From Xenophilus sp. Marseille-Q4582 (GTDB taxonomy: Bacteria > Pseudomonadota > Gammaproteobacteria > Burkholderiales > Burkholderiaceae_C), in NCBI RefSeq assembly GCF_916700565.1, contig NZ_CAKAKO010000004.1, positions 310,001 to 374,000 on the forward strand: a stretch of 64,000 bases of DNA. The letters run 5' to 3'. The translations under genes and the position numbers were made by a program. Numbering within the stretch: the first letter of the stretch is position 1; the number at the start of each line of letters is the position of its first letter. The notes under the pieces were generated by a model. The model saw only the letters and a program-made list of their open reading frames with translations. It searched no databases and had not been told where the DNA came from. Positions 17,551 through 56,144 of the stretch are shown in pieces.

Positions 17551-20500
17551 ATGCAACTCTCACGCCGCCAGTTCATGAAAGTGACTGGCTCCACGCTGGC
17601 GGGATCCAGCCTGGCGTTGATGGGCTTCTCGCCCGCGACGGCCCTGGCTGAAGTCCGCCAGTTCAAGCTGGCCTCCACCACCGTCACCCGGCAGACCTGC
17701 ACCTACTGTTCGGTCGGCTGCGGCATCCTCATGTATTCGCTGGGCACGGGCGGCAAGAACGCCAAGTCCTCGGTGATCCACGTCGAGGGCGACCCGGACC
17801 ATCCGGTCAACCGCGGCACGCTGTGCCCCAAGGGCGCGGGCCTGCTGGACTACATCAACAGCCCCAACCGCCTGCTCTACCCCGAGTACCGCGCACCGGG
17901 CTCCAACGAGTGGCAGCGCCTGTCCTGGGACGAGGCGCTGGACCGCATCGCGAAGCTGCTCAAGGCCGACCGCGACGCCAACTTCCAGGCCACCACGCCC
18001 GAGGGCCTGAAGGTCAACCGCTGGCTCACCACCGGCATGCTGGCCGCCTCGGCGTCGAGCAACGAAGCCGGCTACATCACCCACAAGGTCGCCCGTTCCT
18101 GGGGCCTGCTCGCATTCGACAACCAAGCGCGTGTCTGACACGGCCCGACGGTGGCAGGTCTTGCCCCGACGTTCGGCCGTGGAGCGATGACGAACCATTG
18201 GGTCGACATTCGCAACGCAGATGTGATCTTGATCATGGGCGGCAATGCCGCCGAAGCCCACCCGTGCGGCTTCAAGTGGGTGACCGAAGCCAAGGCGCAC
18301 AACAAGGCGCACTTCATGGTGGTGGACCCGCGCTTCAACCGCTCGGCCTCGGTGGCGGACTTCTACGCGCCCATCCGTTCGGGCAGCGACATCGTCTTTC
18401 TCGGCGGGATCATCAACTACCTGCTTACCAACGACAAGATCCACCACGAGTACGTGCACAACTACACGGACTTCAGCTTCATCGTCCGTGACGACTACCA
18501 GTTCGTGGACGGCATCTTCTCGGGCTACGACGAGGAAAAGCGCAGCTACGACAAGAAGAGCTGGGACTACGAGCTGGGTGACGACGGGTACGTCAAGACC
18601 GACCCGACGCTGCAGCATCCGCGCTGCGTCTACCAGCTGATGAAGCAGCACTACGCGTCGTACACGCCCGAGAAGGTCGAGAGCGCCTGCGGCACGCCCA
18701 AGGCCAAGTTCCTGCACGTGTGCGAGAAGTTCGCGTCCACGGCCGTGCCGGGCCGGGCCGCGACCATCATGTATGCGCTGGGCTGGACGCAGCATTCCAT
18801 CGGCTCGCAGATCCTGCGCTGCGCGGCGATGGTGCAGCTGCTGTGCGGCAACATCGGCGTGGCCGGCGGCGGCATGAACGCACTGCGCGGGCATTCCAAC
18901 ATCCAGGGCCTCACCGACCTGGGCCTGCTGTCGGCCAGCCTGCCGGGCTACCTGACGCTGCCCAACGAGAAGGAGCAGGACTACCAGGCCTACATCGACG
19001 CGCGCACCCAGAAGCCGCTGCGGGCCAACCAGATGAGCTACTGGCAGAACTACCCCAAGTTCCACGTCAGCCTCATGAAGTCCTGGTTCGGCGCCAGCGC
19101 CACGGCCGAGAACCAGTGGGCCTTCGACTACCTGCCCAAGCTGGACAAGCAGTACGACATGCTGCAGTACTTCCAGCTCATGGCCGAGGGCAAGGTCAAC
19201 GGCTACATCGCGCAGGGCTTCAACCCCATCGCGGCGCTGTCGGACAGCAACCGCCTGCGCACGGGCCTGGCCAAGCTCAAGTTCCTGGTCATCATGGACC
19301 CGCTGGCCACCGAGACCTCCGAGTTCTGGAAGAACTTCGGCGAGTTCAACGACGTGGACACGAAGGCCATCCAGACCGAGGTGTTCCGCCTGCCCACCAC
19401 CTGCTTCGCGGAGGAGGAGGGGGCGGTGGTCAGCAGCTCGCGCGTGCTGCAGTGGCACTGGAAGGCGGCCGAGCCGCCGGGCGAGGCCAGGACCGACGTG
19501 GCCATCATGTCGGCCCTGCACCTGCGCCTGAAGGCCCTGTACCAGAAGGAGGCCGGCGCCTGGGCCGACCCGATCCTGAACCTGGACTGGAAGTACTCGC
19601 ACCCCGAGCACCCGAGTTCCGAGGAGATCGCCAAGGAATACAACGGCAAGGCGCTGGTGGACCTGGTCGACCCGAAGGACCCGACCAAGGTGCTGCGCCC
19701 GGCGGGCCAGCAGGTGTCGGGTTTCGGCGAACTGCGCGACGACGGCACCACGGCTTCGGGCTGCTGGATCTACGCCGGCGCCTGGACGCAGGCGGGCAAC
19801 CAGATGGGCCGGCGCGACAACTCCGACCCCACGGGCATCGGCAATACGCTGAACTGGGCCTGGGCCTGGCCGGCCAACCGGCGCGTGCTCTACAACCGCG
19901 CCTCGGCCGACCTGCAGGGCAAGCCCTTCAACCCGCACCGCAAGCTGGTCGAGTGGAACGGCAAGGCCTGGACGGGCGCCGACGTGCCCGACACGGGCGC
20001 GGCCATCGGCCCGGAGACGGGCAACGGCCCCTTCATCATGAACCCCGAAGGCGTGGCGCGCTTCTTCGCCCGCAAGGGGCTCAACGAAGGGCCCTTCCCC
20101 ACGCACTACGAGCCCTTCGACACGCCGCTGGGCTTCAACCCGGTCTACCCGAACAACCCCAAGGCCACGAACTCGCCCGCGGCCCGGGTGTTCAAGAACG
20201 TCTGGGACACCTTCGGCAAGGCGGCGGACTTCCCGCACGTGGGCACCACCTACCGCCTGACCGAGCACTTCCACTACTGGACCAAGCACTCGCTGGTCAA
20301 CGCCATCACGCAGCCCGAGCAGTTCGTCGAGATCGGCGAGGCGCTGGCGCAGGAGCTGGGCATCGTCGCCGGCGACCGCGTGCGCGTGAGCTCCAAGCGC
20401 GGCTTCATCAAGGCCGTGGCCGTGGTCACCAAGCGCATGAAGGCCATGAAGATCGAGGGCAGGAACGTGCACCACGTGGGCATCCCGATCCACTGGGGCT

Positions 20501-20616
20501 TCAAGGGCTTGACCAAACCCGGCTTCCTGGCCAACACGCTGACGCCGTTCGTGGGGGATGGCAACACCAACACCCCCGAATTCAAGACCTTCCTCGTGAA
20601 GGTCGAGAAGCTGTAA
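17551..20616 (+). CDS. fdnG: Formate dehydrogenase-N/O alpha subunit, selenoprotein
   Basis: A 1021-residue catalytic subunit of the membrane-bound, periplasm-facing formate dehydrogenase, holding the bis-MGD molybdenum cofactor, one [4Fe-4S] cluster and a selenocysteine ligand. A Tat signal ([10 protein letters not shown]) opens the protein, followed by CTYCSVGCG...CPKGAG for the cluster. The in-frame TGA at 18136-18138 is codon 196, exactly the Sec position of E. coli FdnG, in [21 protein letters not shown]; reading continues to 20616 with strong homology. Automatic gene callers would split it into two. It heads fdnGHI; an IS element sits immediately upstream. Confidence 0.96.
18136..18168 (+). 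promoter_or_regulatory. Selenocysteine UGA and bacterial SECIS hairpin
   Basis: The Sec codon TGA (18136-18138) is followed 10 bases later by a hairpin with stem CGG/CCG (18149-18151 with 18166-18168), a bulged T at 18152, inner stem GGCA/TGCC and apical loop GGTCT (18157-18161). The bulged U and GGUCU loop are the SelB-binding features of the E. coli fdhF and fdnG SECIS. SelB is encoded at 25936-28323 in this window. Confidence 0.92.
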
Positions 20617-20626
20617 AGGGGGCACG

Positions 20627-21604
20627 ATGTCTTTGCAATCCCTCGATATCCACCGCCGTTCCGCCACCACCACGCCTTCGCCGCAGGCGCGAGCGCCCCA
20701 GTCGGGCGAGGTGGCCAAGCTCATCGACGTGTCCAAGTGCATCGGCTGCAAGGCCTGCCAGACCGCGTGCATGGAATGGAACGACCTGCGCCAGGAGCCC
20801 GGCCACACGGTCGGCGTGTACGACAACCCGGCGGACCTGACCGAGAACGCGTGGACGGTGATGAAGTTCACCGAATACGAGAACGAGGAATCCGGCAACC
20901 TCGAATGGCTGATCCGCAAGGACGGCTGCATGCACTGCGCCGACCCGGGCTGCCTCAAGGCCTGCCCCTCGCCCGGCGCCATCGTGCAGTACACGAACGG
21001 CATCGTGGACTTCCACGAAGAGAACTGCATCGGCTGCGGCTACTGCATCACCGGCTGCCCCTTCAACATCCCGCGCATCTCGCAGAAGGACAAGAAGGCC
21101 TACAAGTGCACGCTGTGCTCCGACCGCGTGGCCGTGGGCCGTGAGCCGGCCTGCGTCACCACCTGCCCCACGGGCGCCATCATGTTCGGCACCAAGAAGG
21201 CGATGAAGGACCAGGCGGATGAGCGCATCGCCGACCTGAAGGAGCGCGGCTTCCAGAACGCGGGCCTGTACGACCCGGCCGGCGTGGGCGGCACGCACGT
21301 CATGTACGTGCTGCACCATGCCGACCAGCCGGCGCTGTATTCGGGCCTGCCCAAGGAGCCGAAGATCAGCTCCATGGTCGCAGTGTGGAAGGGCATGGCC
21401 AAGCCGCTGGCGCTGGCGGGCATCGCGCTCACGGCGATCGCCGGCTTCTTCCACTACACGCGCGTGGGCCCCAACGAGACCAGCGACGAGGAAGAAGCCC
21501 AGGCCAACGCCGACGCGCTGGCCCGCCGCGAGGCGGCCGGGGTGCCCGCGCGCAGCGCCGATCACGCCGCTTCAGCCCAGGAGGTGCGCCATGAGCAAGG
21601 TTGA
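20627..21604 (+). CDS. fdnH: Formate dehydrogenase iron-sulfur (beta) subunit
   Basis: A 325-residue electron-transfer subunit that carries four [4Fe-4S] clusters from FdnG to the cytochrome b subunit. Four Cys-rich motifs are visible: [35 protein letters not shown] and [11 protein letters not shown] with a later CVTTC. A C-terminal helix near [17 protein letters not shown] anchors it in the membrane. It begins 10 bases after fdnG and overlaps fdnI by 14 bases. Confidence 0.96.
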
Positions 21605-22325
21605 ACGTCCCACCGCGGCGGACTTCGCCGTTGCGCGCGAGGAGCCGGTGATCCAGCGCTACACGCCCAACGAGCGCAGCAACCACTGGGTGACCGCCAT
21701 CACCTTCGTGTTGCTGGCGCTCTCGGGGCTGGCGCTGTTCCATCCGTCGATGTACTGGCTCACCCACCTCTTCGGCGGCGGGCCGTGGACGCGCATCCTG
21801 CATCCCTTCATCGGGATCGTGATGTTCCTGTCCTTCCTCTTCCTGGTCATCCGCTTCTGGCACCACAACATCCTGGAGCCGCGCGATCGCCAATGGATGA
21901 AGCAGATGGGCGACGTCGTCAACAACCGCGAAGAGCGCCTGCCGCCGGTCGGCCGCTACAACGCGGGCCAGAAGCTGCTGTTCTGGGTGCTGGTGCTGTC
22001 CATGCTGGGCCTGCTCGTCACGGGCCTGATCATGTGGCGCGCCTACTTCAGCCACCTGTTCACGATCGACGTGCTGCGCATCGCCTCGCTGCTGCATGCC
22101 TTCTTCGGCTTCGTGATCATCTGCGCGATCATCGTGCACATCTATGCGGCCCTGTGGATCAAGGGCGCCATGCGCGCCATGACCCGCGGCACCGTGAGCT
22201 ACGCCTGGGCGCGCAAGCACCACGGCGCGTGGTACGACGACGTGGTGGCGCGCGAAGAGCAACTGGCCCGCGACCGCCGCAACGCGCCCGACATGCGCCG
22301 CGATCCGCAGGCGCCGCCGGCGTGA
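21591..22325 (+). CDS. fdnI: Formate dehydrogenase cytochrome b556 (gamma) subunit
   Basis: A 244-residue membrane subunit with four transmembrane helices that passes electrons to quinone. Heme-ligand His residues lie in the first helix region ([17 protein letters not shown]), in [13 protein letters not shown] and in [20 protein letters not shown]. It is longer at the C-terminus than E. coli FdnI, ending in a charged tail. The ATG at 21591 follows an AGGAGG site and overlaps the fdnH end. Confidence 0.94.
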
Positions 22326-22413: not shown

Positions 22414-22435
22414 CGCCGGGTCCGCCCGGCGTTTT
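22414..22435 (+). terminator. Rho-independent terminator after fdnGHI
   Basis: CGCCGGG-TCCG-CCCGGCG followed by TTTT, a strong GC stem with a 4-base loop, 88 bases after fdnI. It separates the structural genes from fdhE, which starts 41 bases downstream, so fdhE and sel genes probably depend on readthrough or another promoter. Confidence 0.75.
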
Positions 22436-22475
22436 GCTTCCTGCCCTTTCTTCCCATCCTCCTTATAGCGCCACC

Positions 22476-23417
22476 GTGCAACGCATCCTCCAGCCCGGCG
22501 AAATCGAAGCCCTCGACCGCGTGAGCTTTCCGCGCGTGCGCCCGCCCCAGGTGGCCGCACTGTTCCAGGAACGCGCCGCGCGACTCGAACAACTGGCCGA
22601 CGGCAACCCCATCGCCGACTACCTGCGCTTCGCCGCGCGCGTGGTGCGTGCGCAGCACGGCCTGGCCATGCAGGCGCCCGCTGCGCCGCCGCCGTCCGGC
22701 GAAGCCGTGCGTCGTGCGGGCGAGAACGGCATGCCGCTCATGCCCGCCTCGGAGCCGCTGCCCGAAAGCTGGCGCGCCACGCTGCGCGCGCTGGTGGCGC
22801 AACTGGCCGCCGACGGCGCCATCCCGGCCGTGTTGCAACCCGTGCTGGCGCGCTTGGCCGCCACGCCCGACGATGCGCTCGACACCCTGGCGCGCCAGGC
22901 GCTGGCCGACAACCTGGGCCGCGAGGACATCGCCGCCGCGCCGCTGGTCATGGCCGCGCTGCAGGTCGAGTTCGTCTTGCGCGCCGCGGCCGTGGCGCCC
23001 ACCCAGGTGCCCTACACCGAGCCCGCCACCGTCTGCCCCGTGTGCGGCAGCGCGCCCGTGGCCAGCGTGCTGCGCATCGGCGGCAACATCGCCGGCCACC
23101 GCTACCTGCACTGCGGCCTGTGCGCCACCGAATGGCACATGGTGCGCATCAAGTGCAGCCATTGCGAATCGACGAAGGGCGTGCGCTACCAGGGCGCCGA
23201 AGACGCGAGCGGCAAGATCGGCGAAGTGGTGCAGGCCGAAACCTGCACGGCCTGTCACACCTACCGCAAGCTCGTGAGCCAGGAGAAAGACCCCTACGCC
23301 GAGCCGCTGGCCGACGACCTGGCCAGCCTCACGCTCGACCTGCTGATGGGCGACACCGACTTTTCGCGCGCCAGCGGCAACCCGCTGCTGTTCATCGAAA
23401 AGCCGCTGGCGGTATGA
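22476..23417 (+). CDS. fdhE: Formate dehydrogenase accessory protein FdhE
   Basis: A 313-residue cytosolic factor needed for active respiratory formate dehydrogenases. It has rubredoxin-like Cys pairs binding iron: [24 protein letters not shown] and CTACHTYRK, in the C-terminal half. The GTG at 22476 gives a length close to the 309 residues of E. coli FdhE; a more upstream start would cross the terminator. selA follows after 61 bases. Confidence 0.93.
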
Positions 23418-23478: not shown

Positions 23479-24909
23479 ATGAACGCCCGCACGCCGACGT
23501 CGCTGCGCCTGCCTTCGGTGGACCGCGCCCTGGCCACCGACGCCATGCGCGCCCTGGCCGCGCAGTACGGCCACAGCGCGCTGGCCGGTGCGTTGCGCGC
23601 CGAGTTCGACGCCCTGCGCCCGCAGGCCCTGGCCGGCGAACTGGCGCCCGACGCCATCGCCGACGCGGCCTTGCACGCCGCCTGCGAACGCCGCCTGGCG
23701 GCCCGCTTTGCGCCGCGCCTGCGCACGGTGTTCAACCTCACGGGCACCGTGCTGCACACCAACCTGGGCCGCGCACTGCTGCCCGACGAGGCCGTGCAGT
23801 CGGTGCTGCGCGCACTCACCGCGCCGGCCAATCTGGAATTCGACCTGGCCACCGGCGGACGCGGCGACCGCGACGATCTGGTCGACGAGGTGCTGTGCGA
23901 GCTGACCGGCGCCGAGGCCGCCACCGTGGTCAACAACAACGCCGCAGCCGTGCTGCTCACGCTCAATGCGCTGGCGCAGGACCGGGAAGTGATCGTCTCG
24001 CGTGGCGAGCTGGTGGAGATCGGCGGCGCCTTCCGCATCCCCGACATCATGGCCCGCGCGGGCGCCAAGCTGGTCGAGGTGGGCACCACCAACCGCACCC
24101 ACGCCAAGGACTACGCCGAGTCCATCACCGAGCGCACCGCGCTGCTGATGAAGGTACACACCAGCAACTACGCCGTGAGCGGCTTTACCAAGAGCGTGAG
24201 CGAAGCCGAAGTGGCCGCCATCGCCCACGCGAAGCAACTGCCCCTGGCCGTGGACCTGGGCAGCGGCACGCTGGTGGACATGGCGCAATGGGGCCTGCCG
24301 CACGAACCCACCGTGCGCGACACCGTGAACGCCGGCGCCGACCTCGTCACCTTCAGCGGCGACAAGCTGCTGGGCGGCCCGCAGGCCGGCCTCATCGTCG
24401 GCCGCAAGGACCTGATCGCGAAGATCAAGAAGAACCCGCTCAAGCGCGCGCTGCGCGTGGGCAAGCTCACGCTGGCCGCGCTGGAACCCGTGCTGCGCCT
24501 GTACCAGCAGCCCGAGCACCTGGCGCAGCGCCTGACCACCTTGCGCCTGTTCACGCGCCCGCAGGCCGCCATGCAGCAGCAGGCCCAGGCCCTGCTGGCG
24601 CCGCTGCAAGCCGCCGTGGGCGTGGCCTTCACTGTCGAGGTGGCCGCCATGAGCAGCCAGATCGGCAGCGGCGCCTTGCCCGTCGACGTGCTGCCCAGCG
24701 CCGGCCTGCGCCTGCGCCCCACTGCCGCGCGCCAGACCGGCCGCCAGCTCGCGCGGCTGGAAGAAGCCCTGCGCAGCCTGCCGCGCCCCGTCATCGGCCG
24801 CGTGGCCGATCAGGCGCTGTGGCTGGATCTGCGCTGCCTCGAAGCTGCGGACCAGCCCATCTTTGAAAGCCAGTTGCCCGCCCTTTCAGCTGCACTGGCT
24901 GGGGCGTGA
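23479..24909 (+). CDS. selA: L-seryl-tRNA(Sec) selenium transferase
   Basis: A 476-residue PLP enzyme that converts Ser-tRNA(Sec) to Sec-tRNA(Sec) with selenophosphate. The PLP Lys is in [14 protein letters not shown], and the N-terminal tRNA-binding domain precedes [17 protein letters not shown]. Length fits the bacterial decameric enzyme. It belongs with selB, selC and selD in this window. A toxin-antitoxin pair on the opposite strand separates it from selB. Confidence 0.97.
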
Positions 24910-25033: not shown

Positions 25034-25815
<782 letters not shown>

Positions 25816-25848
25816 GCTCAGGCCTCCACAGGAAATCACGGCATCCAG

Positions 25849-25869
25849 TGTAATGCCGACGTCATTACA
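25849..25869. promoter_or_regulatory. Inverted repeat operator upstream of tacA-like gene
   Basis: TGTAATG-7 bases-CATTACA, perfect 7-base arms, centred 44 bases upstream of the antitoxin start. Ribbon-helix-helix antitoxins bind such repeats to repress their own operon. It also lies in the 120 bases before selB, so the TA complex could affect selB transcription. Confidence 0.65.
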
Positions 25870-25935
25870 TTGCAGACTGTATGGCATCGTGCGGTCCCAG
25901 GCGACCATGACGGTCAGACAACCAACATCCACAAC

Positions 25936-28323
25936 ATGATCATCGGCACCGCCGGTCACATCGACCACGGCAAGACCACGCTGGTGCGGGCGCTCACAGG
26001 CGTGGACACGGACCGGCTCAAGGAAGAGAAGGCGCGCGGCATTTCCATCGAGCTGGGCTATGCCTACATGCCCGTGCCCCCGCTGACCTTGCGGCCGCAT
26101 GTGTCGCAGCAGCAGCCGACCGCCGATGCGGCATCGGCCGCCGCGCAGACCGCTGGCACGAGCGGGGAGGGTTCGCAGTCTGGAGGCACAACTGACGCCA
26201 CCGACGACGACAGCACCCAAGTCCTCGGCATCATCGACGTCCCCGGCCACGAGAAGTTCGTCCACACCATGGCGGCTGGCGCCTCGGGCATCGACCATGC
26301 GCTGCTGGTCGTGGCCGCCGACGACGGCGTGATGCCGCAGACGCGCGAGCACCTGGCCATCGCGCTGCTCTTCGGCATCACCCAGGGCACGGTGGCGCTC
26401 ACCAAGTGCGACCGGGCCGACGCGCAGCGCATCGCCGCCGTGAAGGCCGAAGTGGCCGCATTGCTGGCCGGCACGCCGCTGGCCGGCGCGCCCGTCTTTG
26501 AAACCGCCATCCGCCCCGCGGCGGCGGCGCCCGCCGCACACGCCCCTGAGGGCGCAGTGCCTGCCGCGCAAGCCTCGGAAGGCTCCGCGCCCGCGGCCCA
26601 AGGCATCGGCGCCTTGCGCAACCACCTCTTCACCTTGGCCCGCCAGCAGCACGCCCGACGCAGGGACGGCCTGTTCCGCCTCGCCGTCGACCGCGTGTTC
26701 ACGCTCGCGGGTCACGGCACCGTGGTGACGGGCACCGTCTTCGCCGGGCAGGTGCAGGTGGGCGACACGCTCGTGCATTCCGCCACCGGCCAGGCCGTGC
26801 GCGTGCGCAGCCTGCACGCGCAGAACCGCGCCGCGCAGCAGGGCCGCGCCGGCCAGCGCGTGGCGCTCAACCTCACGGGCGTGGACAAGCAGGCCATTGC
26901 ACGCGGCGACTGGGTCGCCGACGCCCGCGTGCTGCAGCCCAGCACGCGCATCGACGTGCGCCTGCGCCTGCTGGACGACGCGCCCCCACTCACGGCCTGG
27001 ACGCCGCTGCACGTGCACCTGGGCGCCGCCCACCGGCAGGCGCATGCCGTGCCGCTGCAGGGCGACACCGTCGCGCCCGGCACCGAGGCGCGCGTGCAAC
27101 TGGTCTTCGACCCCGGCGCGCCCGTGTTCGTGGTGCCCGGCGACCGGCTCATCCTGCGCAACGCCCAGGGCACGCGCACCGTGGGCGGCGGCGCCGTGCT
27201 CGATCCGCAGGCGCCCGAGCGCCGCCGCCGCAGCGCCGAGCGCATGCAGTGGCTCGATGCCCTGGAAACCCTGATCGGCCGCGCGGGGGGCGAAGCGCCC
27301 GGCGACGCCCGCCCGCTGCTGGCCGTGGCGCCCGCGGGCCTCACGCGCAGCGGCCTGGCGCGCCTGCTGGGCCGCCTGCCCGCGCCCGACTGGGCCGGGC
27401 CCGACGCGCCCGCCTTCCCGCTGGGCCAGGCCGGACCGCTGGCCGGTGCCGCGCTGGGCGCGCCCGGCGCGGGCGAGTCCGACAAGGCCGGCCAAGCCGG
27501 CCGGGCCGACATCCTCTGGCTCTCGCCCGCGGCCTGGGCGCAGGTGCAGGCCCGCATCCTCGACGCACTGGCGCGCCACCACGCCCGCTCGCCCGACGAA
27601 CCCGGCCTCAACAGCGCGCGCCTGCAGCGCATGGCTTTCCCGGCCCAATCGGCGCTCGCGGGCTTTGGCACGGCCATGCCCGGCTGGCCCGCCTGGCTCG
27701 ACAAGCTGGTGGCCGACGGCGTGCTGGCCCGCAGCGGCCAGTGGCTGCACCTGCCCGGCCACAGCATCACCCTGAACGACGCCGAACAGGCCCTGGCCGA
27801 CCGCCTGCTGCCCCTGCTGCTGGCCGGCGGCAACGACCCGCCCTGGGTGCGCGACCTGGCCCAGGCCACCGGCACGCGCGAAGACGCCGTGCGCGACCTG
27901 CTGCGCAAACAGGCCCGCCTGGGCGCGCTCTACCAGGTCGTCAAAGACCTGTTCTACCCCGCGCAGCGCATGGCCGAACTGGCCGCCACCTTTGCCACCC
28001 TGTCCGCGCAAGCCACCCACGCGGCGGATTCGCTCCCTCTCCCCCCGCGGGAGAGGGCTGAGAGGGCTGGACAGAGGGGGCGACAAGCGCTGGCCCCGCG
28101 CCTGCCCCCCGGCGCCGTGGAAGCCCGCGTCTTCCGCGACGCCGTGCAACTGGGCCGCAAGCGGGCCATCCAGATCCTCGAATGCTTCGACCGCATCGGC
28201 TACACCCGCCGTGTGGGCGACGCGCACCTGCTGCGCCCCCACACCCGCTGGACGCCGGAAGGCCCGATCACCGGCCCGGCCGCTGACCCCGCCGCCCCGG
28301 CCCCCGCGCCGGCGCAGCCCTGA
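25936..28323 (+). CDS. selB: Selenocysteine-specific translation elongation factor
   Basis: A 795-residue GTPase that brings Sec-tRNA(Sec) to UGA codons and binds the SECIS hairpin. G motifs: [10 protein letters not shown] (G1), DVPGHEKF (G3), TKCDRA (G4). Winged-helix domains form the C-terminal part. It is longer than E. coli SelB (614) through low-complexity inserts: about 45 Gln/Thr/Ser/Asp-rich residues just before G3, an Ala/Pro-rich stretch after the G domain, and about 30 residues within the last winged helices encoded by a repeat. The core stays in frame. selC follows 960 bases after its stop, with a lipoprotein gene between. Confidence 0.95.
28033..28079 (+). repeat. Intergenic-type palindromic repeat inside selB
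   Basis: CTCCCTCTCCC-CCCGC-GGGAGAGGG followed by CTGAGAGGGCTGGACAGAGG. The same kind of unit occurs between genes at 29125-29160. Here it lies inside the selB coding region, in frame, encoding a [18 protein letters not shown]-like insert between two winged-helix elements. Confidence 0.75.
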
Positions 28324-28360
28324 GCCCGACCCCCCGCACCTCAGAAGGAAGCGCCCACCC

Positions 28361-29110: not shown

Positions 29111-29124
29111 CGGCTGTCTGTCTT

Positions 29125-29160
29125 GCTCCCTCGCCCGCTGGGAGAGGGCTGGGGTGAGGG
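29125..29160 (+). repeat. Palindromic intergenic repeat
   Basis: GCTCCCTCGCCCGCTGGGAGAGGGCTGGGGTGAGGG, an imperfect GC-rich palindrome just after the lipoprotein stop. It resembles the unit inside selB. It could form a hairpin and act as a transcript end. Confidence 0.6.
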
Positions 29161-29286
29161 CCGCACGTCGGTCGCCCACGCGCAAGCGCCCCTAGAATCC
29201 CGCCCCAGTGGCTGAGCCCGCGCAGGCCGCCACGTGAAAAATGAGAGCAGCGCATGCGCCCGACCGTGCATGCATGCGCCTCACAA

Positions 29287-29382
29287 GGAAGGCAAACGCA
29301 CCCGGTGGTGCGCCCGGGCTTCAAACCCGGTAGGGGGCGCCAGCCGCTTCCTGGTCGGTTCGACTCCGGCTGCTTTCCGCCA
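29287..29382 (+). tRNA. selC: tRNA-Sec (anticodon UCA)
   Basis: A 96-base tRNA with the features of bacterial tRNA(Sec): an 8-base-pair acceptor stem (GGAAGGCA with TGCTTTCC, one G-T wobble), anticodon stem CCGGG/CCCGG with loop CTTCAAA and anticodon TCA at 29321-29323, a long variable arm, the T loop GGTTCGACTCC, discriminator G and encoded CCA. Close to E. coli selC (95 bases). A TAGAAT hexamer about 95 bases upstream may be its -10 element. An IS cluster starts 105 bases downstream. Confidence 0.96.
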
Positions 29383-40829: not shown

Positions 40830-41957
40830 ATGCGCTTTCTGCAAGCCCTCGAACCCATCGTCCGTGACATCATCGCGCCCGCCGCGGCCGAGACCGACCG
40901 CGAGGCGCGCTTTCCGCGCCAGGCGCTGGACGCGCTGGGCGCGGCCGGGCTGCTGGGCTTGGTGAGCAGCCCGGAGGTGGGCGGGCAAGGCTTGGGCCTG
41001 GCCGAAGCAGCGCAGGTGGTGCAGCGCATCGCGCAGGACTGCCCCGCCACGGCCATGGTGCTGACCATGCACTACGCCGGCACGGTGCTGATCGAGAAGT
41101 ACGGCCCGCAGCAGGTGCGCCAGGCGATCGCGGCCGGCCGGCACATCACCACGCTGGCCTGGTCCGAGATGGGCACGCGCAGCCACTTCTGGGCGCCCGT
41201 GGGCACCGCGCGCCGCGAGGGCGACCAGGTGGTGCTCGACGGCTTCAAGAGCATGGTCACCTCGGCCGCGGAGGCCGATTCGTACGTGTGGTCCTCGCGC
41301 CCCACGCAGGGCGACGGGGCGTCGAGCATCTGGCTGGTCGACGCAAAGGCCGCGGGCCTCGCGCGCACCGCCGTGTTCGACGGGCTGGGTCTGCGCGGCA
41401 ATGCCTCGGCCCCCGTGAAGGGCGAGGGCGTGCGCATTCCGGCCACGGCACTGCTGGGTGAAGACGGCCAGGGCGGCGACCTGATGAACAACGACGAGCT
41501 GCCGGTGTTCGCGACGCTGATCGCGTCCAGCTCCATCGGGCTGATGGACGGCGCGCTGGCGCGCGCCACCGCCCACCTGGTGAAGAACCGCTTTGCCGAA
41601 AGCGACACGAGCCTGTCGGAGCTGCCCACCATCCGCGCCTACCTGGCGCGCGCGCAGATCCGCGCCGACCAGGCCCGCACCCTGCGCGATGACACCCTCG
41701 CCGCGATGGCCGCCGGCCGGCCCGACACGATGCTGCGCGTGCTGGAGGTGAAGGCCAGCGCCGCCGAGGCCGCGCTGGAAGTCACGGACACCGCGATGCG
41801 CATCTGCGGCGGCGCGGCCTTCCGCAAGGACGTCGGCATCGAGCGCCTGTTCCGCGATGCGCGGGCGGCCTCGGTCATGGCGCCGACCTCGGACGTGCTG
41901 TACGACTTCATCGGCAGCGCGTTGTGCGATGCCGCGGCCAAGGCCCAGGCGGCGTGA
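40830..41957 (+). CDS. Acyl-CoA-dehydrogenase-fold flavoprotein
   Basis: A 375-residue ACAD-superfamily protein: helical N-domain, a middle beta domain with TLAWSEMGTRSHFWAP and GFKSMVTSAAEADSYV, and the C-terminal bundle with RICGGAAFRKDVGIERLFRDAR. FAD binding looks intact. At the position of the catalytic base (YEGTS in short-chain enzymes) it has MAPTS, so the usual Glu appears missing, as in ACAD-fold monooxygenases and oxidases. It starts a tight gene row with a PhnD-like gene 21 bases later, a ferritin-like gene and selD. The ATG at 40830 matches the family N-terminus better than an upstream start. Confidence 0.85.
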   Translation: MRFLQALEPIVRDIIAPAAAETDREARFPRQALDALGAAGLLGLVSSPEVGGQGLGLAEAAQVVQRIAQDCPATAMVLTMHYAGTVLIEKYGPQQVRQAIAAGRHITTLAWSEMGTRSHFWAPVGTARREGDQVVLDGFKSMVTSAAEADSYVWSSRPTQGDGASSIWLVDAKAAGLARTAVFDGLGLRGNASAPVKGEGVRIPATALLGEDGQGGDLMNNDELPVFATLIASSSIGLMDGALARATAHLVKNRFAESDTSLSELPTIRAYLARAQIRADQARTLRDDTLAAMAAGRPDTMLRVLEVKASAAEAALEVTDTAMRICGGAAFRKDVGIERLFRDARAASVMAPTSDVLYDFIGSALCDAAAKAQAA

Positions 41958-41978
41958 ACAGAAAAAAGGAGCCCGACG

Positions 41979-42845
41979 ATGAGCCAACCCCAACCCTTCA
42001 TGCTGGGCGCCGTCGCGTATGCGCCCAAGGTCGTCACCATCTGGGAAGGTTTCAAGACCTACCTGGCCGAGCGCGGCTTCGCGATGGACTACATCCTCTA
42101 TTCGAACTACGAGACGCAGGTGCAGGCGCAGTTCACGGGCGACATCGCCTTTGCCTGGAACTCGCCGCTGGCCTGGGTGCGCGCCGACCGCATGGCCCGT
42201 GCGCGCGGGCAGGCGGTGCAGTCGCTCGTGATGCGCGACACCGACCAGGACCTGCAGTCGGTGCTGGTCGTGAAGGCCGACAGCCCGGCGCAGAGCCTGG
42301 CCGACCTGAAGGGCCGGACGGTGGGCTTTGGCGCCATCGATTCGCCGCAGGCCACGCTGATCCCGCTGGACCACCTGCAGCACGAGGGTGGCCTGGTGCC
42401 GGGCCGGGACTACGAGGTGCGCCGCTTCGATGTGCTGGGCGGCAAGCATGGCGACCACATCGGCGGCGAGCGCGATGCGGCGTTGGCCATGCTCCAGGGC
42501 GAAGTGGCCGCAAGCTGGATGATCGCCGGCAACCACCGCGCCTTTGCCAAGGAAGGCACCTTGCCCGCGGGCGGCACGCGCGTGCTGGCCACCACGGGGC
42601 GGTACGACCATTGCACGATGACCGTGAGCCCCGGTGTGGACGCCGCCGCCACGCAGCGCTTCGCCGACCTGCTGCTGGCGATGGACTGGAACGACGCCCA
42701 GGTGCGGCCGCTGCTGGAGCTGGAAGGCCTGAAGCAGTGGCGCCCGGGCCGCGCGGACCACTTCCGTCTGCTGGAGCGCGCGGCCACCGAACAGGGCTTC
42801 TATGACGCGCTCGGGAACATCGTTGCCGCCGACTATCGATATTGA
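41979..42845 (+). CDS. PhnD-like periplasmic-binding-fold protein without signal peptide
   Basis: A 288-residue type 2 periplasmic-binding protein related to the phosphate/phosphonate-binding PhnD group: LGAVAYAPKVVTIWEGFKTY, then DIAFAWNSPLAWVRA, the SLADLKGRTVGFGAIDSPQA hinge block and EVAASWMIAGN. The N-terminus (MSQPQPFMLGAVAY) has no signal sequence or lipobox, so it should stay in the cytosol. No permease or ATPase gene is near. A cytosolic enzyme of this fold (compare MqnA/MqnD and Thi5-type proteins) is more likely than a transporter part. Confidence 0.8.
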   Translation: MSQPQPFMLGAVAYAPKVVTIWEGFKTYLAERGFAMDYILYSNYETQVQAQFTGDIAFAWNSPLAWVRADRMARARGQAVQSLVMRDTDQDLQSVLVVKADSPAQSLADLKGRTVGFGAIDSPQATLIPLDHLQHEGGLVPGRDYEVRRFDVLGGKHGDHIGGERDAALAMLQGEVAASWMIAGNHRAFAKEGTLPAGGTRVLATTGRYDHCTMTVSPGVDAAATQRFADLLLAMDWNDAQVRPLLELEGLKQWRPGRADHFRLLERAATEQGFYDALGNIVAADYRY

Positions 42846-44022
42846 GACGCTGGGCTTCGACGCCGGAGCGCACCTGCTGGTGAAGCATGCGCTGGCGACG
42901 CTGCCCGAGGGCGCATCGCTGCGCGTGACCGGCCAGGCACCGGGCTGGCAGGCGCAGCTGGCCGACTGGTGCCGCGCGCAGGGCCATGCGCTGGCGTGGG
43001 CCGATGCGTCGCAACGCCTGGCGCATGTCACGCCCGGCACCGCCGAGGCCGGCCGCTGGCGCGACGCCGCGCACACCGGCCATGCCGACCCGCGCGCCGC
43101 CGGCGCGGTGCTGCCCGAGGCCCGCGCCCACTGGGGGCTGGCCGCGCGCGGTGCCCGCGTGGAAGCGGGCTCGCCCGACATCGCCTTCCGGCTGGACCGC
43201 AAGGACGAGGTCTGGGCCGAGAACGCGGCCGAGCTCTATGCCCAGGCCGTCAGCGCGCAGTGGGACCCGGAGGTGGCGCTGGACTGGCAGGTGGCCTTCA
43301 CCCACCCGCCCGAGGTCGAAGCCGCGATCCGCCAGGTCATGACCTACATGGTCGAGAACGAGAACGCGGCGCTGCTCGTGCCCGCGCGCTTTCTCGGGCA
43401 GATCCACCCGCACTACCGCGAGCTGCAGGCCGCGCTGGCGATCCAGGTGGCCGACGAGGCGCGCCACATCGAGGTCTTCACAAGGCGCATCCGCCTGGGC
43501 GGCGGCGAGCCCGCGCTGTCCACGGCGGGCGGCCAGGCCTCGCTCAAGAGCCTGCTGGACGAGCCCGACTTCTCCGTCGCGGGTTTCCTGCTGTCGGTGC
43601 TGGGCGAAGGCACCTTCGTCAACCTGCTGCAGTTCCTGGCCGCGCATGCGCCCGATCCGCTCACGCGGCAGATCGCGAAGCTGGCGGCGCGCGACGAGGC
43701 GCGCCATGTGGCGCTCGGCATGTCGCACCTGCTGTACCGCCTGCAGCAGGAGCCGGCGATGCGCGGGCGCCTCGCGCACGCCGTGGAGGCGCGGCACGAC
43801 AGCCTGGCCGGCACCGCGGGCCTGAACGAGGAGGTGTTCGACGCGCTGGTGCTCATCGGCGCCGGCGCGCTCACGCCCGCCGCCGTGGCCGCCGGCTTTG
43901 CCAAGGTGCAGCAGCTCATGCGCGAGATGGCCGACGGCCGCTTCACGCGCCTGCTGCGCCTGGGCTTCGAGCGCGCCGAGGCCGAGCGGCTGTCGGCGCT
44001 GCATACGCGAAACTTCATGTGA
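42802..44022 (+). CDS. Degenerate TusA-like domain fused to ferritin-like di-iron protein
   Basis: A 406-residue protein. Residues 12-65 align with TusA/SirA (IETLGFDAGAHLLVKHALAT and a late ADWCRAQGHAL), but the sulfurtransferase CPxP motif is replaced by DAGAH, so the transfer Cys is absent. A ferritin-like bundle follows with two E-(n)-DEARH sets: MVENENAALL with ADEARHIEVF, and LGEGTFVNLL with ARDEARHVALG, enough for a di-iron site. It overlaps the PhnD-like gene by 44 bases and is 45 bases before selD. TTG at 42823 is another possible start. Function unknown; genomic context points to selenium metabolism. Confidence 0.8.
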   Translation: MTRSGTSLPPTIDIETLGFDAGAHLLVKHALATLPEGASLRVTGQAPGWQAQLADWCRAQGHALAWADASQRLAHVTPGTAEAGRWRDAAHTGHADPRAAGAVLPEARAHWGLAARGARVEAGSPDIAFRLDRKDEVWAENAAELYAQAVSAQWDPEVALDWQVAFTHPPEVEAAIRQVMTYMVENENAALLVPARFLGQIHPHYRELQAALAIQVADEARHIEVFTRRIRLGGGEPALSTAGGQASLKSLLDEPDFSVAGFLLSVLGEGTFVNLLQFLAAHAPDPLTRQIAKLAARDEARHVALGMSHLLYRLQQEPAMRGRLAHAVEARHDSLAGTAGLNEEVFDALVLIGAGALTPAAVAAGFAKVQQLMREMADGRFTRLLRLGFERAEAERLSALHTRNFM

Positions 44023-44067
44023 GACCGCGGCCGTTCGCGGCCCCCTTTCCCCCATCCATTCCGAACC

Positions 44068-45135
44068 ATGACTGCTGCCACCGACTCCGCCCCGCGCCTC
44101 ACCTCCCTGTCCCACGGCGGCGGCTGCGGCTGCAAGATCGCGCCGGGGGTGCTCAGCGAACTGCTGGCCCGCAGCAGCCTGCCGAAAATGGGTTTCCCCG
44201 ACCTGCTGGTGGGCACCGAGACCGCCGACGACGCGGCCGTCTACCGCATCAACGAGCGGCAGGCCATCGTCGCGACCACGGACTTCTTCATGCCTATCGT
44301 GGACGACCCGCGCGACTTCGGCCGCATCGCGGCCACCAATGCGCTGTCGGACCTCTACGCCATGGGCGCGCAGCCGCTGATGGCGCTGGCCATCGTCGGC
44401 ATGCCGATCAACGTGCTGCCGCACGAGGTCATCGCGAAGATCCTCGAAGGCGGCGAATCGGTGTGCCGCGAGGCCGGCATCCCGCTGGCGGGCGGGCATT
44501 CCATCGATTCGGTCGAGCCCATCTACGGCCTGGTCGGCATCGGGATCGTGGAGATCGCGCACCTGAAGCGCAACGCCACCGCGCAGGCCGGCGACGTGCT
44601 GGTCCTCGGCAAGCCCCTAGGGGTGGGCATCCTGTCGGCAGCGCTGAAGAAGGGCGAACTCGACGCCATGGGCTATGCGGCCATGATCGAGGCGACCACG
44701 AAACTCAACCGCCCCGGCACCGAACTCGCGCGGCTGCCGGGCGTGCATGCGCTGACCGACGTGACCGGCTTCGGCCTGTTGGGCCACACGCTGGAACTGG
44801 CGCGCGGCGCGGGCCTGGCGGCGCACCTCGACAGCGGCGCGCTGCGCTGGCTGCCCGGCGTGCAGGCGCTGGCCGCGCGCGGGATCGTCACCGGCGCCTC
44901 GGGGCGCAACTGGGCTTCTTACGGGGCCCAGGTGGAAGGCGCCGTGACGGAGGACGCCACGCTGCGCGCGCTGCTGACCGACCCGCAGACCTCGGGCGGC
45001 CTGCTCGTGGCCTGCGCGCCCGAAGCCGCGGCGCAGGTGCTGGAGCTCTTTGCGAAGGGCGGCTTCACCGATGCGGCGGTGATCGGCCGGATGAGCGCCG
45101 GTGCACCGGGCGTGCGCGTTTTTTCAGAGGACTGA
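44068..45135 (+). CDS. selD: Selenide, water dikinase
   Basis: A 355-residue selenophosphate synthetase that makes selenophosphate from selenide and ATP for SelA. The Gly-rich loop SHGGGCGCKIAP has Cys20 and Lys23, matching Cys17 and Lys20 of E. coli SelD; DDAAVY, TDFFMPIVDDPRDFGRIAATN and AGGHSID bind metal and ATP. This is the Cys form, not a selenoprotein. It ends the four-gene row and converges on an L,D-transpeptidase gene with a 12-base overlap. No mnmH (selenouridine synthase) gene is in the window. Confidence 0.97.
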   Translation: MTAATDSAPRLTSLSHGGGCGCKIAPGVLSELLARSSLPKMGFPDLLVGTETADDAAVYRINERQAIVATTDFFMPIVDDPRDFGRIAATNALSDLYAMGAQPLMALAIVGMPINVLPHEVIAKILEGGESVCREAGIPLAGGHSIDSVEPIYGLVGIGIVEIAHLKRNATAQAGDVLVLGKPLGVGILSAALKKGELDAMGYAAMIEATTKLNRPGTELARLPGVHALTDVTGFGLLGHTLELARGAGLAAHLDSGALRWLPGVQALAARGIVTGASGRNWASYGAQVEGAVTEDATLRALLTDPQTSGGLLVACAPEAAAQVLELFAKGGFTDAAVIGRMSAGAPGVRVFSED

Positions 45136-46667: not shown

Positions 46668-47918
46668 ATGTCCTCTGCGCTTCCCCCTTCCTCCGGCGCC
46701 GCCCCGCGGGCGGCCGCCATGCCTTCGGCCGCCGCCGCCGCGCCCCTGCGCCTGTACCCGCTGCTGCTGGCGGCCCTTCTGGGCACCATGGCCATGATGG
46801 CCTACGTGGCCGTCATCGGCCCGGCCGTGCGGCGCCTGGGCCTGCCCGAATGGGTGGCCGGGCTGTCGGTGACCGCCGGTGGCATCTTCTGGATGCTGCT
46901 GGCGCGCGCCTGGGGCCGCGCCAGCGACCGCGCGGGCCGCAAGCCCGTGCTGCTGGTGGGCCTGGGCGTGTTCGCGCTGACCTACCTGGGCATGGCGCTG
47001 GGCGTGGACCTGGCGCTGCGCGGCGCCCTGGGCGGTGTGGCCGTGGTGGCGCTGCTGATCGTCACGCGGGCGCTGGTGGGCGCCTTCTACGCCGCGGTGC
47101 CGCCCACGGCGGCGGCCGTGATCGCCGACCACACGCCACCCGCCTCGCGCGGGGTGGTGATGGCCAAGCTGGGCTCGGCCAACGCGCTGGGCATGGTGGC
47201 CGGGCCGGCGGCGGCCGGCTGGCTGGCTTCGCGCGACCTGGGGCTGGCGCTCTACGCGGCGGCGGCGCTGCCGGCCATCGCCTTCGTGCTGATCGCGCTG
47301 CGCCTGCCCGCGCGCGCACCGGTGGCTGCGCCCGCGGGCGGCCCGGGCGGCAAGGGCGGCATCGGCCTGTGGGACGCCCGCCTGCGCCTGCCCGTGCTGA
47401 CGGCCTTCATCGCCATGGCTTCGGTGGCGGTGGCGCAGGTGTCGGTGGGCTTCTTCGCCATCGACCGCTTCGGCCTGCGCGAGGAGGAGGGCGCGCGCGT
47501 GGCGGGCCTGGCGCTCACGGCCGTGGGCTGCGCGCTGATCCTGTCGCAGCAGCTGGTGATGCGCCTCAGGGGCGTGCCGCCGCTGCGCTGGGTGTGGGTC
47601 GGCGCGCTGATCTCGGGCCTGGGTTTCCTCAGCGTGTTCTGGATCCATTCGCAGGCGGCGCTGCTGGCGGCGTACGGCTGCGCGGCCTTCGGCATGGGCT
47701 TCATCTTTCCCACCTTCCAGGCCATGGCCGCCAATGCCGTGCAGGCGCACGAGCAGGGCGCGGCCGCGGGCAACCTGTCGGCCGCGCAGGGCCTGGGCAT
47801 GGTGCTGGGGCCGCTGATCGGCACCCTGGTCTACCGGCTGGCGCCAGGCGCGCCCTATGCCCTGGTGGGCGCCGCGCTGCTCACACTTTCCCTCAGCGTG
47901 GCTTTACGTCCGCGATAA
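46668..47918 (+). CDS. MFS exporter, probably siderophore
   Basis: A 416-residue major facilitator with 12 predicted membrane segments. The loop 2-3 motif WGRASDRAGRKPVLLVG is typical, and TRALVGAFYAAVPPTAAAVI marks helix 4-5. It is immediately upstream of the enterobactin-type genes, and its stop lies inside the Fur box, so an EntS-like exporter of the catecholate product is likely. Being before the Fur box, it must be transcribed from its own promoter. Confidence 0.8.
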   Translation: MSSALPPSSGAAPRAAAMPSAAAAAPLRLYPLLLAALLGTMAMMAYVAVIGPAVRRLGLPEWVAGLSVTAGGIFWMLLARAWGRASDRAGRKPVLLVGLGVFALTYLGMALGVDLALRGALGGVAVVALLIVTRALVGAFYAAVPPTAAAVIADHTPPASRGVVMAKLGSANALGMVAGPAAAGWLASRDLGLALYAAAALPAIAFVLIALRLPARAPVAAPAGGPGGKGGIGLWDARLRLPVLTAFIAMASVAVAQVSVGFFAIDRFGLREEEGARVAGLALTAVGCALILSQQLVMRLRGVPPLRWVWVGALISGLGFLSVFWIHSQAALLAAYGCAAFGMGFIFPTFQAMAANAVQAHEQGAAAGNLSAAQGLGMVLGPLIGTLVYRLAPGAPYALVGAALLTLSLSVALRPR

Positions 47919-47930
47919 GAATGATTCTTG
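47914..47930 (+). promoter_or_regulatory. Fur box upstream of entE
   Basis: GATAAGAATGATTCTTG contains AAGAAT-G-ATTCTT, a 6-1-6 inverted repeat close to the GATAAT-based Fur consensus. It overlaps the MFS stop codon and lies 53 bases before the entE start. Ferric-Fur would repress the siderophore operon under iron sufficiency. Confidence 0.8.
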
Positions 47931-47982
47931 TTGATGGTGGACAATGGCGGGCTCGTTTCCGAGCGAATCCCGCCTTGTGCCC

Positions 47983-49659
47983 ATGCCTGAACCCCTGATT
48001 CCCCTGCGCCAGAGCTGGCCCGACGCCTTCGTTCGCCGATATCGGGGAGCCGGCTACTGGCGCGGCGAGACCTTCCCGGCCTTCCTGCGCGAGCGTGCCC
48101 AGCGCCTGGGCGCGCGCACGGCGGTGGTGGGCAGCGGCCAGCGCTGGAGCTATGCCGAGCTGTGGCAGCGCGCCGAAACGGCTGCCGCCGGCTTCCTGGC
48201 GCTGGGCCTTTCGCCCGGCGACCGCGTGGTGGTGCAGCTGGGCAACGTGCCGGCCTTCTACAGCGTGGTCTTCGGCCTGTTCCGCGCCGGCCTGGTGCCG
48301 GTCTATGCGCTGCCCGCGCACCGGATCACCGAGATCGGCCATTTCATGCACAAGGCCCAGGCCGCGGCCTATGTGGCGCTGCGCAGCTACGAGGCCTACG
48401 ACTACCGCCTCCTGGCGCGCGAACTGGTGGCCCGCAAGGAGGCCGGCGAGCTGCCGCATTTCCGCCAGGCCGTGATCGTGGGCGGCGACGCGGCCGAGTT
48501 CGCCGACTTCGACGCCTTCCAGCCCGACCCTTCGCTGCTGCCCAACCAGGACCCGGATCCGCAGTCGGTCGCCTTCCTGCAGATCTCGGGCGGCAGCACG
48601 GGCCTGTCCAAGCTGATCCCGCGCACGCACGACGACTACATCTACAGCTTCCGCGCCAGCAACGAGATCTGCGGCATCGGCGAAGACAGCGTCTACATGG
48701 TCGCGCTGCCGGCCGCGCACAACTTCCCGATGAGCTCGCCGGGCGCCATGGGCGCCTTTTATGCCGGGGCCACGGTGGTGCTGTCGCCTTCGCCCTCGCC
48801 CGAAGCGGCCTTTCCGCTCATCGCGCGCGAAAAAGTGACCGACCTGGGCCTGGTGCCACCGCTGGCGCTGCTGTGGGCGCAGGCCGCCGAGACGACCGCG
48901 CACGATCTTTCGAGCCTGCGCGTGCTGCAGGTGGGTGGCGCCAAGCTCACGACTGAGGCCGCGCGCCGCGTGGTGGCGGGGCTGAAATGCCAACTGCAGC
49001 AGGTCTTCGGCATGGCCGAAGGGCTGGTCAACTACACGCGCCTGGATGACCCTCAGGAGATCGTGCTGAACACCCAGGGCCGGCCGATCAGCCCCGACGA
49101 CGAGGTGCTGATCGTGGACGACCACGGCCAGCCGGTGCCCGAAGGTCAGCCCGGCTACCTGCTCACGCGCGGGCCGTACACCATCCGTGGCTACCACAAC
49201 GACGACGCGGCCAACGCGCGCAGCTTCACCGACGACGGCTTCTACCGCACCGGCGACGTGGTGCTGCGCACGCCCGAGGGCTACCTGAACGTGCAGGGCC
49301 GCGCGCACGACCACATCAACCGCGCGGGCGAGAAGATCTCGGCCGAGGAGGTGGAAGACCACCTGCTCGCGCATCCGCAGGTCTTCGACGTGGCCGTGGT
49401 GTCCATCCCCGACGAATACCTGGGCGAGCGCATCTGCGCCTTCGTCATTCCCAACGCGCCGCGCGCGGGTGAAGACAAGCCCCGCGGTCCCGCGCTCAAG
49501 GCCTGGATGCGCGCGCGCGGCGTGGCCGCGTACAAGATCCCCGACCAGATCGTGTTCGTCGAGGCCTTCGAGACCACCGCCGTGGGCAAGACCAGCCGCA
49601 AGGAGCTGCGCGCCCGACTGCGCGAAGAGTTCCTAAAAGCGCAGCCCGCGCAGGGCTGA
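47983..49659 (+). CDS. entE: 2,3-dihydroxybenzoate-AMP ligase
   Basis: A 558-residue adenylating enzyme that activates 2,3-dihydroxybenzoate and loads it on the aryl carrier protein. Core motifs: [15 protein letters not shown] (P-loop), the aryl-acid pocket [37 protein letters not shown] and the C-terminal GKTSRKELR Lys. The AAHNFP signature with Asn is the DHB-type pocket. The ATG at 47983 is preferred because 47944 would almost touch the Fur-controlled promoter. The carrier protein gene follows by 73 bases. Confidence 0.92.
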
Positions 49660-49732
49660 ACTCTTTCATCGATTTTTCTTTCCAGGCGCGCCGCGTGTGT
49701 GAGGCGCGCCGCTTGCTGACTGTTTTTCTGCC

Positions 49733-49996
49733 ATGACCGATCCGACTGCCTCCACCCCCGTCCTGACCCTGGAAAAGCTGCGTGCCGACGTGGCCCGCAT
49801 GGTGGGCGAGGCGCCCGAGGACATCGCCCTCACCGACAACCTGATGGACGTGGGGCTGGATTCCATGCGCATGCTCAACCTCATCATGGGCTGGAACGAG
49901 GCGGGCCTGAAGATCGACTTCTCGGACCTGGCGGAGCACACCACGCTGGAAGGCTGGTGGAAGGTGCTGTCGGCCCGCCAAGGTATTCAAGAATGA
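49733..49996 (+). CDS. Free-standing aryl carrier protein
   Basis: An 87-residue carrier with the phosphopantetheine Ser in NLMDVGLDSMRML. In E. coli this domain is the C-terminal part of EntB; here it is a separate gene, and the isochorismatase is encoded 6 kb downstream. It receives the DHB group from EntE and presents it to the condensation domain of the synthetase. A phosphopantetheinyl transferase gene is not in the window. Confidence 0.9.
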   Translation: MTDPTASTPVLTLEKLRADVARMVGEAPEDIALTDNLMDVGLDSMRMLNLIMGWNEAGLKIDFSDLAEHTTLEGWWKVLSARQGIQE

Positions 49997-50141
49997 CGGC
50001 AACCCCCAAGCCGCTTCGCGGCTCCCCCTTCTGCTGCGCGAAGGGGGCGCAGCCGACGGTTCGGCAAAGCCGGTCCCGTGGCTGCCCTGAGATGGGTGGC
50101 ATGTGGCGCGTGGTCCGTGGGGCGTGGCCCGGGGAGGCCGC

Positions 50142-54113
<3,972 letters not shown>

Positions 54114-54130
54114 CGATACGAGGACCGAAC

Positions 54131-54904: not shown

Positions 54905-54907
54905 GCC

Positions 54908-56128: not shown

Positions 56129-56144
56129 TTGCTCTTTTCATCCA

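Follow-up and report, generated by a model that had tools for sequence, protein, structure and literature searches.

The window analysed here is a 64,000-nucleotide stretch of the genome of Xenophilus sp. Marseille-Q4582 (contig NZ_CAKAKO010000004.1, positions 310,001 to 374,000), and our subject is a set of three closely spaced genes that immediately precede selD in it. These three genes, which we refer to as the module, code for a flavoprotein of the acyl-CoA dehydrogenase (ACAD) type, a protein resembling the solute-binding proteins (SBPs) of transporters, and a protein that joins a TusA-like domain to a putative diiron domain. Together with selD they are arranged as follows, with positions counted along the window:

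40830..41957, + strand: gene for an ACAD-fold flavoprotein (FadE16/Rv1679-like), 375 aa, lacking the catalytic Glu and having VMAPT instead
41979..42845, + strand: gene for a cytosolic SBP-like protein (Rv1680-like; PtxB/PhnD fold), 288 aa
42802..44022, + strand: gene for a degenerate TusA-like N-terminal domain followed by a ferritin-like diiron-type domain (fold like VlmB, aldehyde-deformylating oxygenase (ADO) and R2lox), 406 aa
44068..45135, + strand: selD, selenide water dikinase, 355 aa

A preliminary description of this DNA had reported four packed genes on the + strand ending in selD, and the open reading frames (ORFs), their strand and the gaps between them (21, -44 and 45 bases) are all as it claimed. 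The selD product belongs to the SelD family by two curated NCBIfam models, scoring 538.6 bits against a cut-off of 299 and 421.8 bits against a cut-off of 125. The set recurs in other genomes, and the arrangement is therefore not due to chance. A genome collection, scanned with aligned sequences of the third protein, gave 291 relatives, and among the best 80 of these 291 loci, which we analysed, most are in Burkholderiales and their kin, followed by Caulobacterales, Myxococcota, Acidobacteriota, Actinomycetota and Chloroflexota. All three module proteins are present in 72 of the 80 loci, and the SBP and third protein in 79 (by tblastn); the exception for the SBP, L055, starts at a contig end. 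The ACAD is missing from the available stretch in L019, L055 and six Caulobacterales loci, and L074 starts too near the SBP gene to show it. The gene maps were drawn with a home-made gene caller, so that single absent genes may be artefacts; the ACAD and/or SBP are unlabelled on the maps of L047, L050, L053, L057 and L087, yet both were found there by tblastn. The three genes upstream of selD are a conserved module, and one whose third protein is rare in the window's own family (5 of 150 genomes, the window's own included). We note that the module of [Pseudomonas] boreopolis (L020:3316-6476) is 81-86% identical to that of the window, which on sequence makes it a candidate for recent transfer.

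The N-terminal, middle and C-terminal ACAD domains of the first protein all score above their Pfam cut-offs, and its best NCBIfam match is to the Rv1679 family (NF049984), at 349 bits under a cut-off of 600. Ordinary ACADs have a Glu-Gly-Thr motif at the site of the catalytic base. As the preliminary description had proposed, this base is gone: the site reads M-(A/G)-P-T-x-D, with M350, P352, T353 and D355 present in 72 of 73 aligned rows (the remaining row has a gap), and VMAPT is found in all nine members of a wider ACAD comparison. There are other enzymes of the ACAD fold that lack the base Glu, namely 3-sulfinopropanoyl-CoA desulfinase, SfnB and DszC. The flavoprotein shares their fold and matches their profiles weakly (98, 69 and 46 bits, respectively), but it differs from them in its own conserved M-(A/G)-P-T-x-D and falls far under every curated cut-off.

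The second protein matches the Pfam phosphonate-binding fold with 112.7 bits (cut-off 27), and its best NCBIfam match is to the Rv1680 family (NF049985; 214.2 bits, under the cut-off of 400). It has no leader, as had been supposed from the sequence of this one member: the family alignment begins straight at the first strand, in contrast to a related transporter protein (L058:14500-15357) that has a signal-like N-terminus. Two motifs, H157-G-D-H160 and D210-H-C212, are present in 79 of 79 rows, with K156 in 78, and in a wider comparison each of the nine cytosolic SBPs has KHGD and HC, while both are missing from the L058 transporter protein. The predicted structure (predicted local distance difference test, pLDDT, of 93.5) has a fold matching PtxB, PhnD, ArrX and AioX. 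In the PhnD-type fold the ligand is held by loops, and profile alignment to a solved PhnD places the KHGDH and DHC motifs near these; the structures matched by the model include some whose titles name PhnD H157 and HtxB D206 variants. The putative selenate transporter binding protein family TIGR04553 belongs to the same PhnD/PtxB superfamily, and the module SBP reaches 65.3 bits against that model (cut-off 250). The two nevertheless differ, as the TIGR04553 transporter protein begins with a signal-like region and has neither KHGD nor HC, whereas the module SBP has no leader.

The third protein was described initially as a fusion of TusA and ferritin. Both Pfam matches lie under the gathering thresholds (AurF 23.2 bits against 29.6; TusA 18.4 against 28.6), although at E<=0.01 AurF is matched by 22 of 23 family members and TusA by 14. 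The putative metal ligands E185, E187, E219xxH222, E269 and E299xxH302 are invariant in 23 rows and lie on four predicted helices, the pattern of Glu and ExxH pairs expected of a ferritin-like diiron protein; a C-terminal HTRNFM is likewise invariant in the 23 rows. In the predicted structure (pLDDT 82.7) the C-terminal domain resembles VlmB, ADO and R2lox, which account for all 11 Foldseek matches with E <= 0.001 (TMt 0.56 to 0.83). Identity to these enzymes is 16-22%, and the third protein differs from them in the added TusA-like domain and the conserved HTRNFM. At the N-terminus, the sulfurtransferase motif of TusA proteins is built around a CPxP cysteine, and none of the 80 ungapped rows has this cysteine (there is no Cys21, and position 22 is a Gly). 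The argument from YedF/TusA proteins to selenium therefore fails in the form in which it was put, and a selenium-carrier role that depends on the CPxP cysteine is ruled out; a different cysteine of the domain, C57, lies off the CPxP place and is kept in 76 of 81 rows, and a role for it is possible. Diiron-type domain matches that have no TusA-like domain were seen in genomes G438, G535 and G567, and are possible paralogues.

The module lies beside selenium genes in several different ways. Among 87 loci, 28 have selA, selB or selD within the fetched stretch, and on a quick tree of these 87 the fewest changes of linkage label is 8, of which at least 7 are forced by starred branches, compared with a mean of 24 for shuffled labels; the tree has long branches, and the placing of L122 was flagged as uncertain by the tree tool. 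The sel association has thus been gained or lost several times, and linkage to sel genes recurs as it should for a gene set of selenium utilisation. In 12 loci, including the window and others in Xenophilus and Hydrogenophaga, selD follows the module directly (L013-L017, L045, L055, L067, L070, L071 and L075 in addition to the window), while in 14 loci (L056-L066, L068, L069 and L078; Variovorax, Pseudacidovorax, Rhizobacter, Roseateles and Ideonella) the module sits in one row between selA and selB, and the same locus has tRNA-Sec, the tRNA for selenocysteine (Sec). These rows are preceded by formate-dehydrogenase genes, except for L057, whose stretch begins too late to reveal them. In Azoarcus L083 selA is upstream of the module, L028 and L085 have formate-dehydrogenase genes only near it, and in an actinobacterium (G447; L122) a module copy of about 40% identity lies beside selB, selA, tRNA-Sec (selC) and selD. 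In the 150-genome sample of the window's family, a sel gene adjoins the module in all five carriers, being selD in G000, G071 and G023, and selA with selB in G119 and G144; by a rough estimate, a gene picked at random would be that near to a sel locus, a few genes away at most, in far fewer than 1% of genomes. An MnmH/SelU gene is next to selD in L013 and L058, and in nine Variovorax and Pseudacidovorax loci (L057-L063, L066 and L078) selD has a divergent ATP-binding cassette (ABC) transporter beside it, whose binding protein, family-tested in L058 only, is TIGR04553, a putative selenate binding protein, at 368 bits (cut-off 250). Similar transporter genes are nearby in Hydrogenophaga L070, L071 and L075.

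The selenium link is thus real and better supported than the preliminary description could show, although it is looser than an operon with selD. We suggest, with a probability of roughly 0.4, that the module works by oxidation, releasing selenium from a small compound so that it can be passed to SelD, and that it is an optional component on the supply side of selenium use. The cytosolic PtxB/PhnD-fold SBP would bind a small selenium compound having an oxyanion-like or methylphosphonate-like shape (methylseleninate or selenite, for example), and would do so through the family-specific KHGDH and DHC motifs on its ligand-side loops. The flavoprotein without the ACAD base and the diiron-type oxygenase would then oxidise or dealkylate the compound and release selenium, which, once reduced, would reach SelD, with the degenerate TusA-like domain perhaps acting as a docking or substrate domain. 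Here we infer the metal content and the direction in which selenium flows, and the ligand and the order of the steps are guesses.

A number of observations weigh against this proposal. No selA, selB or selD was found in the fetched stretch at 59 of the 87 loci, which rules out selD linkage as a general rule and with it that part of the earlier claim. The preliminary description had asked whether the upstream genes are mostly found without selD, and in the sense of adjacency they are; but SelD scores over its cut-off in 46 of the 49 genomes whose module has neither selenium genes nor formate-dehydrogenase genes in the fetched stretch ("solo" modules). The three solo genomes in which SelD was not detected (L030, L072 and L086) are all metagenome assemblies, and that of L086 does have SelB and SelU. 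SelD is also common where the module is absent, with a baseline of 135 of 150 genomes in the window's family, 61 of 150 in a Caulobacterales sample and 194 of 296 Actinomycetota, and co-occurrence at the level of genomes is for this reason weak evidence. The sample centres (G000, G186 and G194) were chosen for carrying the module. The Caulobacterales sample has no carrier other than its centre, and five of six Caulobacterales carriers have SelD; in the 296 Actinomycetota the third protein is matched in 15 genomes at E<=1e-15, of which 8 are strong (E<1e-90) and 7 partial, and all 8 strong carriers have SelD. With the centres excluded, the chance under these baselines that 4 of 4 family carriers and 7 of 7 strong Actinomycetota carriers would all have SelD is about 0.03 by a hand estimate uncorrected for kinship. 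With baselines of 41-90%, we reject co-occurrence with SelD as strong evidence alone, and consider that it supports the selenium link modestly.

What the SelD-bearing genomes do with selenium is more informative, and bears on the side on which the module might act. By curated cut-offs, and in genomes that are possibly incomplete, 24 of the 46 SelD-bearing solo genomes have both SelB and SelU, 7 have SelB only, 12 SelU only and 3 neither; two of those counted as SelU only (G184 and G187) just miss the SelB cut-off of 242, at 237 and 240 bits. The module thus follows SelD whichever sink uses the selenium, which suggests that it acts in supply or else has its own sink. We also observed that the SelD hits of G189, G191, G193, G194 and G197, and of 10 of the 13 SelD-bearing genomes of the wider-family set, contain one in-frame TGA, consistent with SelD being itself a selenoprotein in these genomes.

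The flavoprotein raises further difficulties. Its profile is closest to true short-chain ACADs and not to monooxygenases of the DszC type, so that a CoA-linked substrate is possible, and none of the three module proteins is a flavin reductase, the neighbourhood not having been searched for one. The more distant relatives of the module add others. SBP homologues are present in 16 of the 296 Actinomycetota (three of these score about 60 bits and resemble transporter proteins), and in twelve Actinomycetota neighbourhoods of the module type a diiron-type protein adjoins by BLAST in six (L114, L117, L118, L119, L121 and L122), with a further one found by profile in L115; only one of the seven diiron-type copies in context is beside sel genes. 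L111 and L112 (genomes G389 and G626) have close ACAD-SBP pairs (62-66%) in genomes with SelD, and no diiron-type or radical S-adenosylmethionine (radical-SAM) third protein was recognised beside the pair, nor any diiron-type protein in these genomes at E<=1e-15; the third gene is therefore not indispensable to the pair. In L113 an ACAD-SBP pair is part of an arsenosugar-like cluster (L113:3403-16469), in a genome in which SelD was not detected. This cluster includes MTAP-like phosphorylase, methyltransferase-like, radical-SAM and methionine-synthase-like genes, a PhnD-type transporter, and an arsenosugar-type glycosyltransferase (TIGR04282, over its cut-off); its LysR gene is nearest to a selenium-associated model, under the cut-off. 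In two other loci the gene after the ACAD-SBP pair codes for an Rv1681-family radical-SAM protein (NF049973; 433.7 and 537.6 bits for L116 and L120, with a cut-off of 380) in place of the TusA-diiron protein:

L116:5180-6172: Rv1681-family radical-SAM gene replacing the TusA-diiron gene
L120:6697-7695: Rv1681-family radical-SAM gene replacing the TusA-diiron gene

SelD was detected in neither of these two genomes, and selenium specificity of the family as a whole is not supported. The radical-SAM proteins have a short N-terminal region that is weakly TusA-like (Pfam TusA E 0.032 in L120, with no match in L116).

The arrangement of L116 and L120 is that of the mycobacterial-type operon Rv1679-Rv1681, which has the same ACAD-SBP pair in the same order and shares with the module the VMAPT, KHGD and HC motifs. 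Its third gene, too, starts with a short, weakly TusA-like region, but continues into a radical-SAM domain where the module has a diiron-type domain, and this form is the one found in the two genomes without detected SelD. In one paper Rv1680 is described as a putative phosphonate transporter component (PMC8562490). The scaffold is thus wider than selenium, with the diiron form being the one that accompanies it; of the earlier claim that the set handles a selenium compound, what stands is that the three genes before selD form a genuine unit, tied to sel genes in several arrangements. Adjacency to selD as a rule and selenium specificity of the whole family are not supported. A more ambitious extension of our proposal, tentative and somewhat unlikely as a whole, is that this represents an undescribed pathway in which flavin and diiron enzymes, paired around a cytosolic phosphonate-type SBP, oxidatively release selenium from a small organic selenium compound and feed SelD, and in which the catalytic domain is exchangeable, with a TusA-like docking domain fused to a diiron domain in selenium users and to a radical-SAM domain where there is no SelD, thus serving two chemistries or elements.

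The main rival to selenium release places the module downstream of SelD, as a further sink whose logic would be comparable to that of the sen cluster: SelD would supply selenophosphate, the phosphonate-fold SBP would bind this or what is made from it, and tailoring by the flavin and diiron-type enzymes would give a new small molecule containing selenium. We regard this as unlikely, but selD does follow the module directly in the 12 loci noted above, PhnD/PtxB folds bind phosphate-like groups, of which selenophosphate is one, and the L113 pair is clustered with radical-SAM, methyltransferase-like and arsenosugar-type glycosyltransferase genes. The three SelD-bearing solo genomes with neither SelB nor SelU over the cut-off could likewise be explained by a sink of this type, although these are metagenome assemblies and possibly incomplete. 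However, a role in supply agrees better with a module inserted between selA and selB and near a putative selenate transporter, and no fixed biosynthetic partner was seen among the shared neighbours, the commonest of which, beyond the module, sel, formate-dehydrogenase and transporter genes, are by eye SDR-like (short-chain dehydrogenase/reductase-like; 17 loci) and LysR-like (12 loci).

It is also conceivable, although we consider it quite unlikely, that the module acts on a substrate without selenium and that its linkage reflects shared regulation or transfer together with formate-dehydrogenase islands. The two genomes that have the radical-SAM form and in which SelD was not detected are in keeping with this, as are the unlinked majority of loci and the high SelD baseline. 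However, at least seven changes of linkage, involving several gene orders and including one in Actinomycetota at about 40% identity, are hard to obtain by hitchhiking, and metagenome assemblies account for all three of the solo genomes in which SelD was missing. Finally, the SBP might use its His-Cys pair to store or shield selenite or selenophosphate, with the redox proteins detoxifying an excess. The invariance of D210-H211-C212 in the 79 SBP rows, the presence of HC in all nine cytosolic SBPs and not in the L058 transporter protein, and the oxyanion-binding proteins ArrX and AioX among the fold matches would suit such a carrier or protective function, but the strong conservation of sites in both redox proteins suggests turnover and not storage, and we find this explanation improbable.

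Genes of unknown role next to selD are also a feature of the sen cluster of selenoneine biosynthesis (SenABC; PMC9814287). The module genes likewise adjoin selD and have no assigned role, but unlike the sen cluster the module is also found inside selA-selB operons. SenA and SenB are not known to be ACAD, SBP or diiron proteins. We found no description of this cluster or pathway in the open PMC literature, as seen in listings and the starts of abstracts, although the primary selenoneine paper could list the set, and the words ferritin, acyl-CoA and phosphonate are absent from the main texts of PMC5322559 and PMC5029168, which were covered in passages. How bacteria acquire selenium is an open question, and according to a 2022 review a high-affinity transport system for selenium is yet to be identified (PMC9312934). 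A conserved three-protein set located in Sec-formate-dehydrogenase operons and by a putative selenate transporter offers a direct handle on selenium sources. It also links Rv1679-Rv1681, three families to which the sources consulted assign no role, with a broader scaffold that has either a diiron or a radical-SAM catalytic domain.

The window also contains a complete-looking Sec-formate-dehydrogenase operon at 17326-29382:

17551..20616, + strand: fdhA, formate dehydrogenase alpha subunit, with an in-frame TGA (Sec) at 18136-18138; the start presumably lies inside ORF 17326-20616
18133..18191, + strand: selenocysteine insertion sequence (SECIS) element (RF01989)
20711..21604, + strand: fdhB, by BLAST to the gene of relatives
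21591..22325, + strand: formate dehydrogenase gamma subunit, by BLAST to the gene of relatives
22434..23417, + strand: fdhE
23518..24909, + strand: selA
25582..28323, + strand: selB, given as the ORF with its start unrefined
29287..29382, + strand: selC, tRNA-Sec

The module and selD lie about 11 kb beyond this operon, with transposase-like copies (by eye) in between, and insertion sequences may have separated the selenium genes of the window. Between selC and the module, at 29648-32960, the same ORF start (MRTRLKAWERELV...) occurs twice in opposite orientation, and appears by eye to be that of a transposase; another ORF resembling a transposase by eye (16234-17322) ends just upstream of the formate-dehydrogenase operon. 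On the other side of the module, the region following selD (46719-56795) contains a transporter-like gene together with genes for an AMP-ligase, a carrier protein, a non-ribosomal peptide synthetase, an SDR, and isochorismate-synthase-like and isochorismatase-like proteins, and by eye is a catecholate siderophore cluster.

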